Assembly: GCA_002694745.1 (NCBI GenBank)
Contig: NZMY01000012.1
Location: 1 to 57,536, forward strand
DNA: 57,536 bases
Source of the DNA: Croceicoccus sp.
GTDB lineage: Bacteria; Pseudomonadota; Alphaproteobacteria; Sphingomonadales; Sphingomonadaceae
Direction: 5' to 3'
Of the stretch, positions 21,307 to 57,536 are shown in pieces. Positions within the stretch are counted from its first letter, which is position 1. Each line of letters opens with the position of its first letter. The notes beneath the pieces were generated by a model. The model was not told where the DNA came from, made no database searches, and was given only the letters and a program-made list of their open reading frames with translations. The position numbers and the translations under genes are program-made.

Positions 21307-21900
21307 TCAGTCGTTGGAGTCGGTCGGCGGGGTCTGCGCCTGTCGCCGGCGCTCCCACTCGCCTCGCAGCCATTCGCCCTGTCGTTGTGCTGCAGCGCGG
21401 CTGATCCCTCGCGCCTTGGCCGGCGCCGGCGGGAACGGGGCACCCTCGTTGTAGAGCTGCTCAAGGCGGTCGGCTTCCCGCATGAAGGCGACCTCGACGA
21501 GACCGGCCAGCGCGGGCGCACCCTCCGGCTCATCCCTCGTCGACCACCACGCAGCCTTGAGGCGCGCGTGCAGCGCGACCGGCAGGTAGTAGGTCTGATG
21601 GCGGTATCCCGCGGCTCCTCTTGGGTTCACACCCTGGGCACGGTCGGGGGCAGGAGGGAAAGGGGAGCCGGCGTTGTAGAGCTGCTCGAGGCGGTTGGTC
21701 TCGCGGCCGATGGCGACCTCGACGAGACCGGCCAGCGCGGGCGCACCCTCCGGCTCATCCCTCGTCGACCACCACGCAGCCTTGAGCCGTGCATGCAGCG
21801 CGACCGGCAGGAAGTATGCGATCGAGCGGTAGCCGGTGGCCGACACTGACCCGGCGGGGCGGTCGGTGTCACCAGCGGCGTTGACATCTGTTGAGGGCAC
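21307..21900 (-). CDS. tandem-domain RHH protein (pCXC100 ParB C-terminal-like)
   Basis: A 197-aa protein made of two near-identical domains. Each runs Y-x-LPVALHARLKAAWW, then LAGLVEVA, then RLEQLYN-x-G-x-PFPPAP. This is the pattern I know from the ribbon-helix-helix C-terminal domain of centromere-binding ParB of plasmid pCXC100 and its relatives. A 75-bp stretch is identical in both halves (21487-21561 and 21712-21786, offset 225 bp = 75 codons), so the duplication is recent or under gene conversion. GTG start, weak ribosome site. It probably binds the nearby 20-bp iterons; target untested. Confidence 0.7.
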   Translation of the reverse strand: MPSTDVNAAGDTDRPAGSVSATGYRSIAYFLPVALHARLKAAWWSTRDEPEGAPALAGLVEVAIGRETNRLEQLYNAGSPFPPAPDRAQGVNPRGAAGYRHQTYYLPVALHARLKAAWWSTRDEPEGAPALAGLVEVAFMREADRLEQLYNEGAPFPPAPAKARGISRAAAQRQGEWLRGEWERRRQAQTPPTDSND

Positions 21901-49027: not shown

Positions 49028-49060
49028 TGTCCGCGAAGCGTCCGAGGCTGGGCCTATACC
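49028..49060 (+). promoter_or_regulatory. TGTCCGCGAA/CCTATACC promoter box 8
   Basis: TGTCCGCGAA (49028-49037) and TATACC (49055-49060), 17-bp spacer. It faces the 49,142 gene. The dyad TGATTCTGAATCA (49108-49120) lies between box and start codon. Confidence 0.75.
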
Positions 49061-49141: not shown

Positions 49142-49414
49142 ATGCCAGCCAGAGCGAAGCCAGGACGTCGTTCATACGGCCCTCGCGCCGTCAGGACGGT
49201 TCGATATCCGGAGGCCTACGACCCGATCCTCGAACGCCTCGCTGCGGAGTCTGGGATCCCCCTCAGCAGCTGGCTTGCGCTGGCTGTCTCACAGCAGGCC
49301 GGGCTTGAGATCCCGGACTACGTCAAGGACGAGTTGGAAAAGGCGGCGCGCGAGCGCGCTACGCGCGAGGCAGAACAGGAGCTCGACATGCTCGACATGC
49401 CAAAGTCCGCGTAG
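49142..49414 (+). CDS. small RHH-like protein upstream of the replicase
   Basis: A 90-aa protein. VRTVRYPEAYDPILERLAAESGIPLSSWLALAVSQQ reads as a beta strand plus two helices of a ribbon-helix-helix, then a charged helical tail. A possible second promoter (TGCTAGAAA, 49127-49135) would make a leaderless mRNA starting at the ATG. Position between iterons and replicase suggests copy-number control. Confidence 0.6.
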   Translation: MPARAKPGRRSYGPRAVRTVRYPEAYDPILERLAAESGIPLSSWLALAVSQQAGLEIPDYVKDELEKAARERATREAEQELDMLDMPKSA

Positions 49415-49466: not shown

Positions 49467-49638
49467 GGGTCACAGCCTCCTGCCAGAGGCTGATCAAGTT
49501 ACTGATGCTGAGTCAGTCAATCCATGATCGGATGTTCATGATTATAGCCGCGATATTGCGGATGTCTAGCGTTGGTGTGGCCGTCGTGTCGCACACGCTG
49601 GGCGCTGCAGCGTGCACCCGAGGGGGTGTGCTGCAGCG

Positions 49639-52600
49639 ATGACGCTTGAGTACACCGGCACGTCGACGGCTACGAACTCTCTCGATCGTGTTCTCGAGGC
49701 CCTGGACCGGGGCGGGTGGAAGCCCCGCCGGCAGGGAAGCCAGCACATGGCGCTGTGCCCAGTGCACGGCGACGCGATGCCGTCGCTGAGCATCCGCTAC
49801 GACCGCACCGGCGGCAAGGTGATGTTGCACTGCTTCGGCTGCGGCGATGCCTTCGATCTCCGCGACGTGTGCGGCGCGCTCGGCCTGACCGTCAGCGACC
49901 TGTTCGACGCACCGCTGCCCGCCGATCGCCGCACCGGCTCGCGCACCCCGCGGGCGAAGCGGCCCTCGCTGCCGCCGCGGCTGACGCAAGATGAGCTCGC
50001 CCCCAAGACTCCGGATCTGACGGGCGCGACATGGCGCCAGGTCAAGGTCTACGAGTACGTCGACGACAACGGCGTCGTCCTGCAGCGCGTGCACCGCGAA
50101 GAGACCACCCTGGACGGACAGCGGCACAAGAGGTTCACGCAGAGCTACCGTGGCGCCAACGGCCGGTGGGTCAAGCGCAAGCCCGAAGGCTTTGCGCCCC
50201 TCCTGTACAACCTCGCCGCGATCCGCGCAGCGGTCGCCGCCGGCGGCGACGTGTGGCTGCTCGAGGGGGAGAAGGACGCCGACAGCGCGATCGCCGAGGC
50301 CCTGGCCGCGACGACGAACGCCGGCGGTGCCACGGCGTTCCCCGCCGAGCTGCTCGAGCAGTTCCGCGGCGCCACCGTCAACCTGGTCGTCGACAACGAT
50401 CCCGCCGGCGCACAGCGGGCCGCGGCGGTCGGCGCGCAGCTGGCGGAGCTGGGCATCCCGGCACGGATCTACCTGCCCAACCTCGACGACCGCAAGTCGG
50501 ACTTCACCGACCACATGGACGCCGGCGGCACCGTCGCTACGCTCGTCGAGATCTCCGTCGACGACGCCCGCGCCATGGTCGCCGCGGCCGAGGCAGACAA
50601 GCTCGTCCACGGCCGCACCGGCGTCGCCGTGTGCCTCAAGGAAGCGACTGCCCAGCTTGAGCAGAACCAGCAGGACCGGGCAACCTCCGAGCAGCACGCC
50701 GAGGCGTGGGCGCGCGAGTCCCTCAACCGCCTCGAGCGGATCCACGCGATCAACCCGGACCTGACCGCGGAGCAACTCAGCGACCGGGGCCGCGTCGCCC
50801 TGACCGAGCACGCGGCCGCGGTCGCGGAGGGCGCGCGGATCTCCCGCGACACCTACATCGTCGCAGGTCTCGACGTGCCCCAAGCGGTCGCCTCCTCCGT
50901 GGTCGCAACCCGCCCCGTCGTCGACGAGCAGCAGCCGGCAGAGACTATCGAGATCACCCCCTCCGCACCCCTCACGCAGACCGGCAGCGGCGGCGGGGGA
51001 GTGTTCTTCGGCAACGACAACCCCGAGGACCAGCCCGAGAAGCGCCCCTTCATCCGAGGCAACCACTACGGCGTGGTTGAGGGGCAGACCGTGCTCATCA
51101 AGCACACCCCCGGCGACGAGGACGACCAGTACCATCGGGTCATGCACGGCTGGGCAGAGGTCCAGACAGTCGCCATCGAAGACGACGGCACGGACAACGA
51201 GATCGCTCGCCCCCCGCACCTGTACGTGATCAAGTTCTCCCGGTGGGTCCGCAACGATCGCGGCTACCCGATCCGCGACAAGGAGACCGGCCAGTTCCAG
51301 ACCGAGTCGGTGGTGCTCAAGTACACCGAAGACCAGATCCGCGACGGGTCATGGTCCAAGGCGATGCCCTGGCCTGGGTTCCTCGAGTCGAACAGCCGCC
51401 GCGGCGCGGATCAGGCATGGGATGCGATGAACGCGATCAAGCCGCCGCGGAACAACAGCATCGTGCACACCACGGTCGGATGGCGCACCACCGACACCGG
51501 CGACTACTTCGTGCACGCGACCGGCGCGATCGCCAAGAACGGCGCGCTCGGCGTCGAGGTCGACGTCGCGACGACCTCCGAAATCTACGCGATGCCCGAG
51601 CCGACCACCGACCGCGACCAGCTGCGCCAGGCGTGGCTCGACGGCACCGTGGCGCTGCGGGAATCCGAGCTGCCCGCCCGTGTGATCGCACCGCTGCTCG
51701 GCCACTCCTGGACCGCCCCGGTCCTGCCTGGCCCGATCTTGCTGCACCTGGTGGGCGGGTTCGCTTCCTACAAGACCTCACACAGCCGTCTGGCCGTGCA
51801 GTACTTCGCCCCGAACCTCACCCACAACACCAAGGGCCTGATCTCCGGCGCATCCGGCGGATCCACCGCGATCGGCCTGCAGCGCCCCCTCTCCGCGATC
51901 AGCAACGTGCCGGTGATCGTCGACGACTTCGCCCCGGACGGCAACGCCAGCGACGCGATCCGCCGCATCAGCACCCTGGGCCGCACCGTGTTCAACGGCA
52001 TCGGTCGCATCCGCGGCAAGCAGCGCGGCGGCGCCGAGGCCGACCGCCCGATCCTCGCCAGCATCATCACGTCCGGCGAACTCTCCGCCCAGGGCTCCGC
52101 CGACTCCCGCATTGTCAACCTCCCGCTGGATCCCGCCACGCTCAAGAACGGCGGCGTGATCTTCGGTCGCCTCGAGTCCAAGCGCGCCCGCCACGCTCGC
52201 GCGCTCATCGGTGCTTCGCTCGTGCAGTGGACGGCCGCGCGCCGTCAGCAGCTCGTCGACGACTTCACCGAGGCCGAAGAGGACAGCGAGCACCGCCTGT
52301 GCACGCAGGCCTACTGGCGTGAGGCCATCCCCCGCCAGAACGGGCACGCGGGCCTCCACGACCGCCTCGTGCAGTCTGCCGTGGTCCTGGACCGCGGCAT
52401 CATGATCATGCTGATGATGCTCCGCGACCTCGACGTCATCAGCGACGACGAGGCCCGCGACTTCTACGGGTGGGCGCGAGCGGGCATCGCCGAGGCGATC
52501 AGTCTGCAGGACTCGTCCGCATCCGACCCCGCCGAGCAACTCATGGAGTACCTGCGCGAGGCGATCGCCAACGGCAACGCTCACCTAGCCGGCATGGACG

Positions 52601-54633
52601 GCACAGTCCCCGACGATGCGAGCTCGCTGGGGTGGGCCGACCAGTCCACCGGAATGAACCCGCAGTGGCGCCCCAACGGGCAGCGCGTCGGCGTCATCAA
52701 CAAAGACCGCCTCTACCTGTTCCCGACGACGGCCGTCGCCGTGGCCCGTCAGATGTCGCAGCGCGCCGATGAAGCGTTCAGCGACACCAAGACCTCGCTC
52801 TCCTCGTCGATGCTCTCCCACGGCTGGCTCATCGCGGACGGCGCCGGCAAGCGCAGCGTCGTCCGCCGCACCGGACGGTCGATGCAGCACCGCGTGTGGG
52901 ACATCCCACTGTCCGCGCTCACCGGCAGCGGCCCCGACACCCCGAACGACGACACCGGCCTGGACGGGGGAGAAGGCCCCCAGACGCCGCCCGAGAACGA
53001 CATCCCGTCGCTGTTCGAGGCGCCCAAGGTCGACGAGGCCACAACCACCCCCGAGGCGCCCGCACAGCCCGCCGTGACCGAGCCCCAGCAGCCTGCATCC
53101 GCAGAATCACCCGCCGCGCCTGCCCCCCGACCGGCAGCGCCCGCACAGCCCGCCGTCGCGACGTCGGCCGAGGACTTCCGTGCACCGCTCGGCGTGCTCC
53201 ACACGGACGGGCTGTGGCTGTCCACGGGCGAGCTGATCACCATCCGCGGTCAGCTCGAGCACGCCGGCCAGCTCGCGCAGCTCGCCACCGACCTCAACCT
53301 GGGCACCCGCATCAACCAGGGCACCAACGGGGCGCGCAAGACCGAGCGCGGCCAGATCTTCCTCACCATGGAAGCCGCTCTCGCTCTCGGACTCCCGCTG
53401 GACACCCTGCCCGAGTCCACCGACTCCGACTACGGCAAGCTGCTGCGCGAAGCCACCAAGGGGCACCCGTTCATCACCATGGCGACCGAGACCGGATTCT
53501 CGCTCAGCGGCGACGGATCCATGGCCGGCAGCATCGACATCTGGCGCGAGGATGACCGCCGGATCGGCGCGCACATCGCCCTCATCCCTGCCCAGGACTT
53601 TCGCTTCATCAGCACGATCCTCGACGGCGACCCAGACCCCGCGACCATCGCCCGTCGCCTGGGGAAGTTCACCGCGGCGCTCAAGTTCCCCTACCGCAGC
53701 AGCGCCGGCACCACCGGCACCAAGCTCATGCGCGCGCTGCTGCCCCGCGACAAGCACGACGAGATCTACTACCCACAGGACCGCCCCGGCCCGGTCAAGG
53801 ACCAGATGATGGCCGAGGGTGACTTCAACTGGCAGCGCAAGCTCTTCGGCGACGAGCTCGAGCAGCGCTGGGTACACGGCTTCGACCGTGGAGGCTCCTA
53901 CCTCGCCGCCGCGAGCACCGAGGTCGGCGTCGGAGCCCCCACCCACTACGACGGCCCGCTGCAATTCACCAAGGCCACGAACAAGCCCGGCTACTGGCTG
54001 ATCACCGCACCGGAACCCGGCAGCTGGCTGATGCCCGACATCTTCGCCGCCCAAGGCATCGTCCGTGACGGGTTCACCGGATCGCAGATCTGGGTCACCA
54101 CCCCCACGCTCGAGCTCGCGAGCGAAATGGGCCTCGAGCTCGAGATCCACGAAGCCTGGCTGTGGGACCGCAAAGCCAAGGTCTTCGAGGCCTGGTACAA
54201 GCGGGTCCGCGACGCCCGCACCACCCTCGACACCACCGACGTCGACGACCAGGCCGCTCGTGACCTCCTCAAGATCGTCTACGCGGCCGCGATCGGCATG
54301 CTCGACTACCGCGGCGACCACGACACCCTCGCCGTGTGGGCCCCGCACCGCCACGACATGATCGTCGCGAAGTCCCGCGCCAACATCATCCGCCGCGTCC
54401 TCGCCAACGCCGAGCGCACCGGCCGCTGGCCCGTCGCGATCGAGAAGGACACCGTCGTCTACACCAGCGACCACATCGACCCGCTCGAGGCCTGGCCCGG
54501 CGACCCGTCCTGGTTCGGCCGCGGCCTCGGTCAGTACAAGTACGAGGGCTCCGACCAGCTCTCGCATCACGCCGAGTTCCTCAACGGCGACGGCACCTAC
54601 AAGGGCAAGCGACACCTGAATGAGTTGATCTGA
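49639..54633 (+). CDS. giant replication protein: CHC2-Toprim primase, DUF927-like ATPase, Tap-like C-terminus
   Basis: About 1664 aa from the ATG after GAGGGGG; the frame reaches a GTG at 49,612. N-terminus: CHC2 zinc finger (C40, H43, C65, C68), then a Toprim fold (LLEGEKD near 209, VVDNDPAG near 250). Middle: DUF927-like helicase/ATPase with a variant Walker A VGGFASYKTS near 705 and Walker B VIVDDF near 760. After a Pro/Ala linker (about 1130-1175), the last 480 residues resemble telomere-associated protein Tap, with polymerase-B-like motif positions: GFDRGGSYLAA near 1414, K-SRAN near 1576, EKDTVVY near 1601. The Tpg-like gene follows by TGATG overlap. Probably the plasmid replicase; the polymerase reading is inference. 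Confidence 0.75.
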   Translation: MTLEYTGTSTATNSLDRVLEALDRGGWKPRRQGSQHMALCPVHGDAMPSLSIRYDRTGGKVMLHCFGCGDAFDLRDVCGALGLTVSDLFDAPLPADRRTGSRTPRAKRPSLPPRLTQDELAPKTPDLTGATWRQVKVYEYVDDNGVVLQRVHREETTLDGQRHKRFTQSYRGANGRWVKRKPEGFAPLLYNLAAIRAAVAAGGDVWLLEGEKDADSAIAEALAATTNAGGATAFPAELLEQFRGATVNLVVDNDPAGAQRAAAVGAQLAELGIPARIYLPNLDDRKSDFTDHMDAGGTVATLVEISVDDARAMVAAAEADKLVHGRTGVAVCLKEATAQLEQNQQDRATSEQHAEAWARESLNRLERIHAINPDLTAEQLSDRGRVALTEHAAAVAEGARISRDTYIVAGLDVPQAVASSVVATRPVVDEQQPAETIEITPSAPLTQTGSGGGGVFFGNDNPEDQPEKRPFIRGNHYGVVEGQTVLIKHTPGDEDDQYHRVMHGWAEVQTVAIEDDGTDNEIARPPHLYVIKFSRWVRNDRGYPIRDKETGQFQTESVVLKYTEDQIRDGSWSKAMPWPGFLESNSRRGADQAWDAMNAIKPPRNNSIVHTTVGWRTTDTGDYFVHATGAIAKNGALGVEVDVATTSEIYAMPEPTTDRDQLRQAWLDGTVALRESELPARVIAPLLGHSWTAPVLPGPILLHLVGGFASYKTSHSRLAVQYFAPNLTHNTKGLISGASGGSTAIGLQRPLSAISNVPVIVDDFAPDGNASDAIRRISTLGRTVFNGIGRIRGKQRGGAEADRPILASIITSGELSAQGSADSRIVNLPLDPATLKNGGVIFGRLESKRARHARALIGASLVQWTAARRQQLVDDFTEAEEDSEHRLCTQAYWREAIPRQNGHAGLHDRLVQSAVVLDRGIMIMLMMLRDLDVISDDEARDFYGWARAGIAEAISLQDSSASDPAEQLMEYLREAIANGNAHLAGMDGTVPDDASSLGWADQSTGMNPQWRPNGQRVGVINKDRLYLFPTTAVAVARQMSQRADEAFSDTKTSLSSSMLSHGWLIADGAGKRSVVRRTGRSMQHRVWDIPLSALTGSGPDTPNDDTGLDGGEGPQTPPENDIPSLFEAPKVDEATTTPEAPAQPAVTEPQQPASAESPAAPAPRPAAPAQPAVATSAEDFRAPLGVLHTDGLWLSTGELITIRGQLEHAGQLAQLATDLNLGTRINQGTNGARKTERGQIFLTMEAALALGLPLDTLPESTDSDYGKLLREATKGHPFITMATETGFSLSGDGSMAGSIDIWREDDRRIGAHIALIPAQDFRFISTILDGDPDPATIARRLGKFTAALKFPYRSSAGTTGTKLMRALLPRDKHDEIYYPQDRPGPVKDQMMAEGDFNWQRKLFGDELEQRWVHGFDRGGSYLAAASTEVGVGAPTHYDGPLQFTKATNKPGYWLITAPEPGSWLMPDIFAAQGIVRDGFTGSQIWVTTPTLELASEMGLELEIHEAWLWDRKAKVFEAWYKRVRDARTTLDTTDVDDQAARDLLKIVYAAAIGMLDYRGDHDTLAVWAPHRHDMIVAKSRANIIRRVLANAERTGRWPVAIEKDTVVYTSDHIDPLEAWPGDPSWFGRGLGQYKYEGSDQLSHHAEFLNGDGTYKGKRHLNELI

Positions 54634-55199
54634 TGGCACTGAGCAAGGAAGCGCAAGCGCGGCAGCTCGCCGCGATGTTCGAGGGACTCACCGGGCACAA
54701 GCTCCCCGAGGTCTCCCGCGACACCAAATCCATGCTCAAGTTCCTCTTCCCCGGCCAGAGCGACCGGTTCCCGATCGCCACGAAGCTCGCCGCCACGAAG
54801 CTCGGAGTCTCCCAGGGCACCGTGCAGCGCTGGATCCGCGGGGCGCAGAATCCCCGCGCCGCGATCACCCAGGAGCTCACCAAGCGCGTCCGCCAGTCCG
54901 TCACCACCAAGCGCGGCCGCGGTCAGCTCGCCAAGCGCATCCAATCCCAGATCCCCACCCGTCAGCGCACCATCCGCATCAACGCGCTGCAGGGCCCGTC
55001 CGCAGACCCCACGGACAAGAAGTACGTCGCCGAACGGTTCAGCAACCTCGATATGTCGCCCTCCGAGCAGCAACAGCTCTATGACGCCTGGGTGCAAGGC
55101 GGCGACACCGGCGCCACCGACTACCTCACCGGCCTCTACGACAACCGCTACGTCGACGGTTGGCAGTTCCACGGCATGAAGGGCGTCGAGTTCCGCTGA
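54633..55199 (+). CDS. Tpg-like terminal-protein homologue
   Basis: A 188-aa, Lys/Arg-rich protein. An N-terminal HTH (TKLGVSQGTVQRW near 53-66) followed by RGAQNPRA and a second, less basic domain reproduces the layout of Streptomyces telomere terminal protein Tpg, which caps linear replicons. Encoded directly after the Tap-like domain, as tap-tpg pairs are. Such homologues also occur on circular elements, so linearity is not implied. Confidence 0.7.
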   Translation: MALSKEAQARQLAAMFEGLTGHKLPEVSRDTKSMLKFLFPGQSDRFPIATKLAATKLGVSQGTVQRWIRGAQNPRAAITQELTKRVRQSVTTKRGRGQLAKRIQSQIPTRQRTIRINALQGPSADPTDKKYVAERFSNLDMSPSEQQQLYDAWVQGGDTGATDYLTGLYDNRYVDGWQFHGMKGVEFR

Positions 55200-55304: not shown

Positions 55305-55742
55305 ATGGCAGCCTCCATGCCCGAGCTCGTCGACTACGCCTACATCGCCGAGAAGCTCAACGTCTCTCAGCAGACGGTGCGCGTCTACGCCACCGGCACC
55401 AAGCAGCGCAAGGCCGGCTTCCCCGAGTCGGTCGCACCCAAGACCGCGCGCTCGCCGCTGTTCCGCAAGAAGGACGCCGACGCGTTCATCCAGCGACGCC
55501 TCACCGAGACCGCCGGCGACACCGCCCAGGAAGAGGCAGCTCACAGCGCATTCGCCGAGCTCGGCCGCGAGATCAACCTGCGCAGCCGCGAACAGCTGCA
55601 GCAGGCCCTCTTCGAGGATCTCAGCCTGCCCCGCACCGAGAAGGACTCCGTCTCGACGCCAGCGCTCAAGAAGCTCTATGCCGACACCGGATCCACCTTC
55701 GTCGCCCACGTACTCGCCTACCGCGGCGCTGCAGTCGAGTGA
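55305..55742 (+). CDS. HTH fused to a DNA polymerase I thumb-like fragment
   Basis: A 145-aa protein. Residues 8-60 form a MerR/excisionase-type HTH (YIAEKLNVSQQTVRVYATG). Residues about 90-141 (REQLQQALFEDLSLP, then VSTPALKKLY, then VLAYRGAA) closely follow the family-A polymerase thumb/early palm segment (QL-LFE-L-LP...ST...L-YR). No catalytic palm is present. It may bind primer-template DNA or interact with host Pol I. AAAGGA precedes the ATG. Confidence 0.65.
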   Translation: MAASMPELVDYAYIAEKLNVSQQTVRVYATGTKQRKAGFPESVAPKTARSPLFRKKDADAFIQRRLTETAGDTAQEEAAHSAFAELGREINLRSREQLQQALFEDLSLPRTEKDSVSTPALKKLYADTGSTFVAHVLAYRGAAVE

Positions 55743-55779: not shown

Positions 55780-55825
55780 TTGACGGAGCGCGCCCACGCC
55801 TCTAGGCTGTGAATGTCACATTCAC
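55780..55825 (+). promoter_or_regulatory. Op7: promoter with dyad operator
   Basis: TTGACG (55780-55785), 17 bp, TAGGCT (55803-55808), then GTGAATGTCACATTCAC (55809-55825). Drives the 55,842 unit. Confidence 0.85.
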
Positions 55826-55841
55826 TAGTAGGAGTCAGGTA

Positions 55842-56552
55842 ATGCCAGACGAGATCGACACGCCGGCACCCTTGTGGTTCACCCCCGAGAGCGCCGACGT
55901 CGATGCGCTCGAGCAAGCCTGGGGAGCCCACAAGCTCAGCAAAATCATGGGCGCCGCCCTCGGCAGCTTCAACCGGCTCGGCCACGTCAACGCCGGCACC
56001 GCCTCCGACACCTTCGGCGTCTCGGAGGGCACCATCCGCCGGTGGATCCGCGACGGAGTTCCTGCCAGTCGACTCGAGCGTGTCATCTCGCTCGTCCGCC
56101 CACCACAGGGCGCATTCGACCAGGAGCGCAAGGATCTCGTCTACGCCCGCGGCGCCGTGACCAAGATCACCACCGATCCAGAGAACGCCGTCGCACTCTG
56201 GGGCTACAAGGGCTACCTCGAGCAGTGGGATCTCGCGATCATCAAGATCAAGGGAATGCCCGTCCTCACCGTCCGCATGGCCCGCACCGACCGCGACCGC
56301 GCCGCAGACAAGCGTCTCGTCGCCGGCGGCGAGCTCGTCGAGCGCGTGACCTTCCCGAGCTACTGGGCAGCCATCGTCGCCCGTAGCGAGCTCCTCGAGG
56401 ACGTCTACCCCTACCGAGTCCAGCTGCGCAACACGAAGCTCGCCAGCGGCGCTGGCAAGGCTTTCCTCGACGAGGCTCCCCGCAAGACGTTGCGCTCCTA
56501 CCGGAAGCGTGCCCGCACCAGCGTCCGCAAGACCACCGAACAGAGCGACTGA
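55842..56552 (+). CDS. HTH protein under Op7
   Basis: A 236-aa protein. NAGTASDTFGVSEGTIRRWI near residues 46-65 is a good HTH and resembles that of the Tpg-like protein. The rest is alpha/beta with a basic C-terminal tail. TAGGAG precedes the ATG; an upstream GTG in the operator itself is unlikely. A DNA-binding protein directly behind the dyad operator is a fair candidate for the autoregulated repressor, with no direct proof. Confidence 0.65.
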   Translation: MPDEIDTPAPLWFTPESADVDALEQAWGAHKLSKIMGAALGSFNRLGHVNAGTASDTFGVSEGTIRRWIRDGVPASRLERVISLVRPPQGAFDQERKDLVYARGAVTKITTDPENAVALWGYKGYLEQWDLAIIKIKGMPVLTVRMARTDRDRAADKRLVAGGELVERVTFPSYWAAIVARSELLEDVYPYRVQLRNTKLASGAGKAFLDEAPRKTLRSYRKRARTSVRKTTEQSD

Positions 56553-57372: not shown

Positions 57373-57536
57373 CCGGGGGAGCCGCGGTGTCGACCGCGCT
57401 CGGAATCGAGGCGAGGCCGGCCGAGCGCAGCGAGCCGGACCTGCCGGGCACCGCCACGACAACTGCACCCACGACAGCGGCCGGCTCGCCGGCCCGCCCG
57501 AGGCGTGCGGCGCAGCCGCTTGCCCACCCGGGAAGG
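57373..57536 (+). other. hairpin-rich 3' end of the window
   Basis: No gene is supported. Several palindromes lie here, including CCGGCTCGCTGCGCTCGGCCGG-type pairing at about 57415-57436, GCCGG-CTCG-CCGGC near 57481-57494, and GCGGC-GCA-GCCGC near 57508-57520. They may be terminators or a structured element; no match to the left end is seen. Confidence 0.4.

Follow-up and report, generated by a model that had tools for sequence, protein, structure and literature searches.

The ends of linear Streptomyces replicons are capped by the telomere-associated protein Tap and the terminal protein (TP) Tpg. In vitro, Streptomyces Tap and Tpg join a deoxynucleoside monophosphate (dNMP) to Tpg and extend it to 13 nucleotides; the authors of this 2015 report saw no polymerase motif in Tap and proposed a new class (PMC4513846). 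A longer Tap, pAL1.101, is encoded on the Arthrobacter linear plasmid pAL1, and another paper compares Tap and TP of Rhodococcus WAY2 with their pAL1 counterparts (PMC7276702). In this study, we analysed contig NZMY01000012.1 of assembly GCA_002694745.1, filed as Croceicoccus sp.; the whole stretch, 57,536 bases, is called the window. Towards its right end lies an open reading frame (ORF) for a 1664-amino-acid Tap, followed by a TP gene. We consider it very probable that this locus is the tap-tp module with which a linear, conjugative-type plasmid of a Microbacterium-like host ends on the right, and that its four-part Tap (CHC2, Toprim, helicase and phi29-type polymerase) would cap the ends with TP as primer. 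What this adds to known tap-tp biology is mechanism, namely a fold assignment that the models support well, and predicted active-site residues.

49639..54633, + strand: Tap, a pAL1.101-type telomere-associated protein of 1664 amino acids (translation, NCBIfam, similarity to plasmid records)
54633..55199, + strand: TP, 188 amino acids, helix-turn-helix (NF047541, TP alignments)
57417..57536, no strand assigned: right telomere (match to sister-plasmid ends, palindromes)

The 1664-amino-acid frame is stop-free in translation from the ATG at 49639; an in-frame GTG upstream, at 49612, is an alternative start from which the product would have 1673 amino acids. The 188-amino-acid ORF begins at 54633, the final base of the stop codon of the large ORF. 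Among 72,556 plasmid records, the Tap protein matched 424, and coverage at a single place was at least 80% in 25 of these. The best match, at 89.5% identity and full length, was in Microbacterium sp. YJN-G (pYJNG), followed by Microbacterium No. 7 plasmid A, Curtobacterium pC1c and pAL1. Many Rhodococcus matches bear the annotation 'telomere-binding protein'. In 14 full-length plasmid relatives, hand-picked among the best 40 of the 424 matches, a TP-like gene always lies directly 3' of tap, and the pair is at most 6.3 kb from the record end in 11; in the other three it lies about 18, 19 and 30 kb inside. In the window, 2.9 kb separate the end of tap from that of the contig.

By its sequence, the window protein is a member of the pAL1.101-type long Tap family, and the locus is of a known kind. 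This family, which the first-pass annotation missed, has been under study since 2010; work of that year by Kolkenbrock on pAL1.101 and its TP reportedly described deoxycytidylation of TP and partly conserved family-B motifs. pAL1.101 is 41% identical to the window Tap over 95% of the length, and in both proteins zinc finger, Toprim, ATPase and C-terminal domain follow one another in this order. The pAL1 TP gene comes directly after that of pAL1.101, at 1.3 kb from the plasmid end. It differs in an extra cysteine-rich stretch of its own before the C-terminal domain, and its TP is 32% identical to that of the window. Among 147 sampled genomes of the order, the C-terminal domain was found at E <= 1e-10 (expectation value) in the window's own genome alone. 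Microbacterium sp. T2.11-28 and M. testaceum FXH-28 have contigs that encode the same domain with 100% identity over 494 amino acids, and for this reason we call the host Microbacterium-like. A search of viral contigs gave 68 pattern matches and no relative among them.

The polymerase-like C-terminal domain

53149..54630, + strand: protein-primed family-B polymerase-like domain, residues 1171-1664 (AlphaFold2 and Foldseek)
53875..53901, + strand: motif A, H1413 to Y1421, with D1416 (alignment and profile pairing with phi29)
54271..54297, + strand: motif B, K1545-x7-G1553 (alignment and profile pairing with phi29)
54361..54384, + strand: helix before motif C, I1575 to N1582, K-SRAN (model and profile alignment)
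54448..54462, + strand: motif C, D1604 to Y1608, with D1604 at the place of phi29 D458 (model and alignments)

The first-pass annotation had read echoes of family-B polymerase motifs in the C-terminal part, and structure prediction, the check proposed with it, gave a PolB-like and not an unrelated fold. AlphaFold2 modelled residues 1171-1664, with 37 relatives in the alignment, at a mean predicted local distance difference test score (pLDDT) of 89.4 and a predicted TM-score (pTM) of 0.87. Foldseek against the PDB placed phi29 DNA polymerase chains at ranks 1-9 (E 3.4e-14 to 7.0e-12), one of them in complex with terminal protein (2ex3). The E <= 1e-3 limit admits 35 matches, and the remaining 26 (ranks 10-35) are, judged by their titles, archaeal family-B polymerases and engineered forms of these. 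In a viral structure library the top three matches were the polymerases of phages GA-1, BadAztec1 and Toil, and most named entries among the 49 matches at E <= 1e-3 are DNA polymerases. It is well supported by these models that the domain is a distant cousin of the phi29 protein-primed family-B polymerase. Gene order is alike as well: in 6 of the 7 phages viewed, a gene annotated as TP adjoins the polymerase, as in tap-tp.

Conservation was followed in two alignments. The structure alignment comprises the window and 37 of 51 loci (38 rows); of the 14 other loci, two are identical to the window in the domain, two are partial, and ten appear from their length and score to be near-copies. Among the 28 rows of the wide set, 17 come from the 37 loci and 5 from the 14 plasmid relatives; a further 5 are Streptomyces Taps chosen from 40 listed rows. 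D1416, K1545, G1553 and D1604 are invariant in both (38/38 and 28/28), also in the five Streptomyces Taps. E1406 is likewise invariant, with no role that we can name. Profile comparison by hhalign pairs the four residues, at a weak score (E 0.021), with phi29 D249, K383, G391 and D458 (literature numbering) in the same order, so that motifs A, B and C are collinear with those of phi29. In the model, D1416 stands at a strand end and D1604 in a turn between two strands. Such strand-end and turn places hold the metal-binding Asp residues of family-B polymerases. The K-SRAN segment, if the first-pass annotation meant it as motif B, was misplaced; it forms the helix before motif C.

The spacing between motifs A and B is 129 residues against 134 in phi29. 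From B to C it is 59 against 75 (58-73 over the 28 rows), and 60 residues follow motif C against 117 (59-84 over the 28 rows). Compared with phi29 polymerase, the Tap domain has short TPR2-like and thumb regions and is fused to primase and helicase parts; it is without the first Asp of motif C, the NSxYG form of motif B and the YxDTDS form of motif C, and without an invariant acidic column in the proofreading region. In its first 180 residues the best-kept acidic columns, D1190 and E1236, each reach 20 of the 28 rows of the wide set, and in 34 and 33 of the 38 rows of the structure alignment. Loss of proofreading is likely from these columns. In phi29, the TPR2 and thumb regions serve strand displacement and processive synthesis. 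Their shortening in Tap therefore would favour patching of ends over copying of the whole replicon, and is consistent with a short product.

Several observations weigh against the assignment to the phi29 type. The superposition is loose, with TM-scores of 0.47 and 0.41 and a root-mean-square deviation of 8.9 over 506 columns, which we read from the model as subdomains that may have moved. Motif C has a single Asp instead of two, and the thumb region is short. The PDB profile search with the sequence returned no polymerase, Pfam DNA_pol_B_2 matches 1 of 15 members (E 0.024) and not the window protein, and the hhalign comparison with seven phage polymerases was weak, at E 0.021 (probability 2.2%), or at E 0.18 (probability 0.3%) with the structure alignment. 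Some viral-library matches at E <= 1e-3 bear names other than polymerase, namely poxvirus proteins at ranks 20, 27 and 29 and a herpesvirus helicase-primase associated protein at rank 42. The polymerase link from sequence alone was rejected as proof, given the weak hhalign score and the unhelpful profile search.

A related arrangement was seen in the Taps of Mycobacterium, Nocardia and related actinobacteria, which carry two tandem copies of the polymerase-like domain in about 1035-1240 amino acids, with uncertain starts. Twelve of the 17 relatives in this short length class were analysed (L030, L034, L035, L041, L042, L044, L050, L054, L056, L060, L061 and L062; L036, L037, L043, L057 and L059 were left out). 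Their N copies match the single-domain relatives by profile (E 1.9e-18). All four motif residues are present in 12 of 12 C copies; of the 12 N copies, one has the motif A Asp, none the motif B Lys and one the motif C Asp, and no N copy has all. By these residues the tandem Taps would consist of one live and one dead half, like Pol epsilon in the opposite order. Pol epsilon has one live and one dead polymerase half.

These copies bear on the first alternative, that Tap is a scaffold, in which a dead polymerase domain binds TP and the telomere hairpins while a host polymerase does the priming. The existence of motif-less copies of the same domain in the Mycobacterium and Nocardia relatives speaks for a scaffold, as do the short thumb region, the single Asp of motif C and the loose superposition on phi29. 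However, the four motif residues are invariant in every row of both alignments while the tandem N copies lose them, which is the contrast expected if catalysis is selected, and Streptomyces Tap and Tpg suffice in vitro. We regard a scaffold as improbable and prefer Tap as an active, shortened polymerase.

Primase, helicase, TP and telomere

49726..49851, + strand: CHC2 zinc finger, residues 30-71, ligands C40, H43, C65 and C68 (Pfam PF01807)
50257..50526, + strand: Toprim domain, about residues 207-296 (weak Pfam match and invariant acidic residues)
50986..53058, + strand: central region with an initiator-helicase-like ATPase, residues 450-1140 (model, PDB matches, Walker residues)

The N-terminal features of the large chain proposed in the first-pass annotation were largely borne out. 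PF01807 (CHC2) matches at E 1.5e-6, with 28.4 bits against a cut-off of 24.9, and across 15 aligned proteins the zinc ligands C40 and H43 are each kept in 12 and C65 and C68 in 13. The Toprim match (PF13362, E 0.0023) is under the Pfam cut-off, yet E209, D252 and D254 are kept in 15 of 15. To judge from these motifs, the CHC2 and Toprim part is a putative primase-like core. As for the 'DUF927-like ATPase', the ATPase stands and the name DUF927 was dropped, as Pfam gave no DUF927 match. Both Walker motifs, A with G706 and K712 and B with D762 and D763, are kept in 15 of 15 aligned proteins. The model of residues 450-1140 has a mean pLDDT of 80.4 and a pTM of 0.68, and the first four places among its PDB matches go to SaPIBov1 Rep and SCCmec Cch (E from 3.1e-14 to 9.8e-14), with SaPIBov1 Rep 8tch at 3.1e-14 and SCCmec Cch 5dgk at 4.0e-14. 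After a gap, lower matches from E 2.8e-5 include PriRep1, poxvirus D5/E5 and the PrimPol helicase of African swine fever virus (ASFV). The sequence profile also matches Cch 5dgk (E 0.0059). In its predicted fold and Walker motifs the ATPase resembles an initiator-type helicase of the SaPI Rep or SCCmec Cch kind; it differs in sitting inside a primase-polymerase fusion.

The Streptomyces Taps share the homologous C-terminal domain, and the Tap resemblance noticed earlier is confirmed by NF047542 (E 9.3e-37), at 127.1 bits against a curated cut-off of 600, which is not reached. In a Tap of the Streptomyces kind an N-terminal helix-turn-helix would precede the Tap domain; the window protein begins with CHC2, Toprim and ATPase instead. 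The five aligned Streptomyces Taps have the same gene order with Tpg, in addition to the invariant motifs, but are about half as long and are annotated as helix-turn-helix proteins, and nothing in them aligned to the CHC2-Toprim-ATPase part in an alignment that covered the C-terminal domain.

Three domain kinds in one chain invite a second alternative, a single-chain replisome whose primase, helicase and polymerase would replicate the entire plasmid, starting at the ends in the manner of phi29. The first-pass annotation had likewise suggested a self-contained replicase. In keeping with this, Pfam recognised no replication initiator among 26 other window proteins, from a scan of part of the ORFs; part of the plasmid, however, may lie outside the window. 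The distances of 59 against 75 residues from B to C and 60 against 117 past motif C argue against processive strand displacement, the acidic columns of the proofreading region are not invariant, and Streptomyces Tap halts at 13 nucleotides. The replicase claim does not hold up well against the short TPR2-like region, the short tail and this halt, and we judge the replisome about as improbable as the scaffold. A wider version, somewhat less doubtful but still unlikely, is that the long actinobacterial Taps can start at a telomere and do more than end patching as single-chain protein-primed replisomes, probably without proofreading, that the Streptomyces Tap is their stripped-down cousin, and that the 'motif-less new class' of 2015 is a branch of family B. 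The reading that we favour remains an end-patching Tap.

The 188-amino-acid TP had been called Tpg-like, and the Tpg model NF047541 matches it at E 5e-5, with 23.4 bits, below the curated cut-off of 90. It is probably the primer for DNA synthesis. T92 and Y173 (15 of 15 TPs) and Y131 (14 of 15) are candidate priming residues. The Streptomyces priming residue has been mapped to T114 of S. lividans Tpg, and pAL1 TP takes deoxycytidine monophosphate (dCMP) (PMC3572947). In the T114 column, where the alignment is gapped, the window TP has Lys, and Thr occurs in 1 of 9 TPs of long Taps. The window TP does have a Thr, T127, at a distance of two residues from that column, but in the 84% identical pYJNG TP the place of T127 is taken by Asn. 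Since T114 is rarely kept in the TPs of long Taps, their priming residue may be another one. A 247-amino-acid protein (55809-56552) was considered as a second TP and rejected; with TP it aligns over only 17 helix-turn-helix residues.

The right end of the window, read inwards, matches the left end of pYJNG, and the linear replicon end suspected earlier agrees with this match to the telomeres of sister plasmids. Contigs of T2.11-28, H83 and Wellendorf end within 12 bp of the window's telomeric place (four genomes including the window's own); an FXH-28 contig follows the match over 164 of the last 200 bases before it diverges. Palindromes lie at 57479-57494 and 57507-57519. The 5' strand of the right end starts with CCTTCCC, and the right end of pAL1 likewise begins with CC. 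The octamer GGCTTGCC was not enriched. Two further points tell against our interpretation. When the last 120 bases were folded as a single strand, the result did not surpass that of shuffles (z -0.25), and the telomere hairpins therefore rest on the palindromes and on conservation. The left end of the window gave no telomere match, so plasmid sequence on that side may be missing.

Three records, NZ_CP060403.1, NZ_CP012698.1 and NZ_CP012699.1 (L003, L005 and L007), are filed as circular, yet each has one end with telomere-like palindromes; their circular topology is probably misfiled. That the module is decayed and non-working on an integrated or circular element, as circular filing of some close relatives and the missing left telomere might suggest, is extremely improbable in view of the open frame, the invariant motifs, the 89.5% whole-length identity with pYJNG and the contigs of four genomes that end within 12 bp of the same telomeric place.

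Neighbouring features of the window

49028..49059, + strand: element TGTCCGCGAA-N15-CCTATAC, promoter-like, preceding the small ORF, Tap and TP (pattern count)
49142..49414, + strand: small ORF of 90 amino acids upstream of Tap (position shared with relatives)

A small ORF occurs at a like place upstream of tap in 10 of the 14 relatives, with 13-43% identity. The 90-amino-acid product has no Pfam or NCBIfam match, and our impression is of a ribbon-helix-helix protein. The element TGTCCGCGAA-N15-CCTATAC is present in 8 copies with 0 expected, at 365, 3987, 5995, 9847, 20688(-), 30269(-), 38456 and 49028, and looks from its sequence like a plasmid-wide promoter class. The palindrome GTGAATGTCACATTCAC has seven exact copies with 0 expected, at 138, 1887, 4088, 7495, 8881, 15854 and 55809, which are likely operator sites of one plasmid regulator.

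Past TP, a 145-amino-acid protein (55305-55742) combines a helix-turn-helix with a fragment of DNA polymerase I. Its Pfam DNA_pol_A match (E 1.6e-7) is below the cut-off and covers positions 14-85 of 381; mycobacterial Pol I matches at E 1.3e-9. In pYJNG and in Microbacterium No. 7 plasmid A a counterpart stands shortly past TP, and another forms part of a 328-amino-acid M. sediminis protein; among 60 related genomes the window's own alone has it at E <= 1e-8. Positions 10121-38436 hold a GmrSD_C gene, an MmeI-type restriction-modification gene, a ParA-like gene and two T2SSF genes, together with FtsK/TcpC/AAA_10/M23 genes that resemble those of a conjugation apparatus. Two stretches of 170 bases, at 21422-21591 and 21647-21816, are direct repeats; they are 88% alike, and their starts are 225 bases apart.

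Proposed mechanism and meaning

We infer polymerase activity, metal binding, the use of TP as primer, helicase action and the following division of labour. Copying of the plasmid would leave a 3' single-stranded overhang folded into hairpins. Tap would bind the overhang, and its helicase part would open the hairpins. The polymerase part would then join the first nucleotide, deoxycytidine (dC), to a hydroxyl of TP, with D1416 and D1604 holding metals during the joining; dC is proposed because the 5' strand begins with CC. Tap would make short DNA, which another polymerase may extend. A fused helicase in the long Tap fits the suggestion that a helicase is possibly needed to clear Tap from the hairpins (PMC4513846).

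If the models are right, a Tap that is a shortened relative of the phi29-type polymerase offers a simple answer to the puzzle of the motif-less Tap. A prior statement of the link between Tap and phi29 was not found among the titles and opening lines of abstracts listed from the literature searched, which lacks preprints and most subscription papers, and we do not claim that the link is unpublished. The title of a later paper names Tap as a telomere-associated primase.

The account of how Streptomyces and other actinobacteria complete their linear replicon ends has a gap: Tap joins nucleotides to Tpg, yet no polymerase motif was seen in it (PMC4513846). Together, the predicted fold and the four invariant residues point to a putative active site that is open to single-substitution tests. 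If true, Tap enzymes would group with the polymerases of phi29 and tectiviruses and would not form a separate class.

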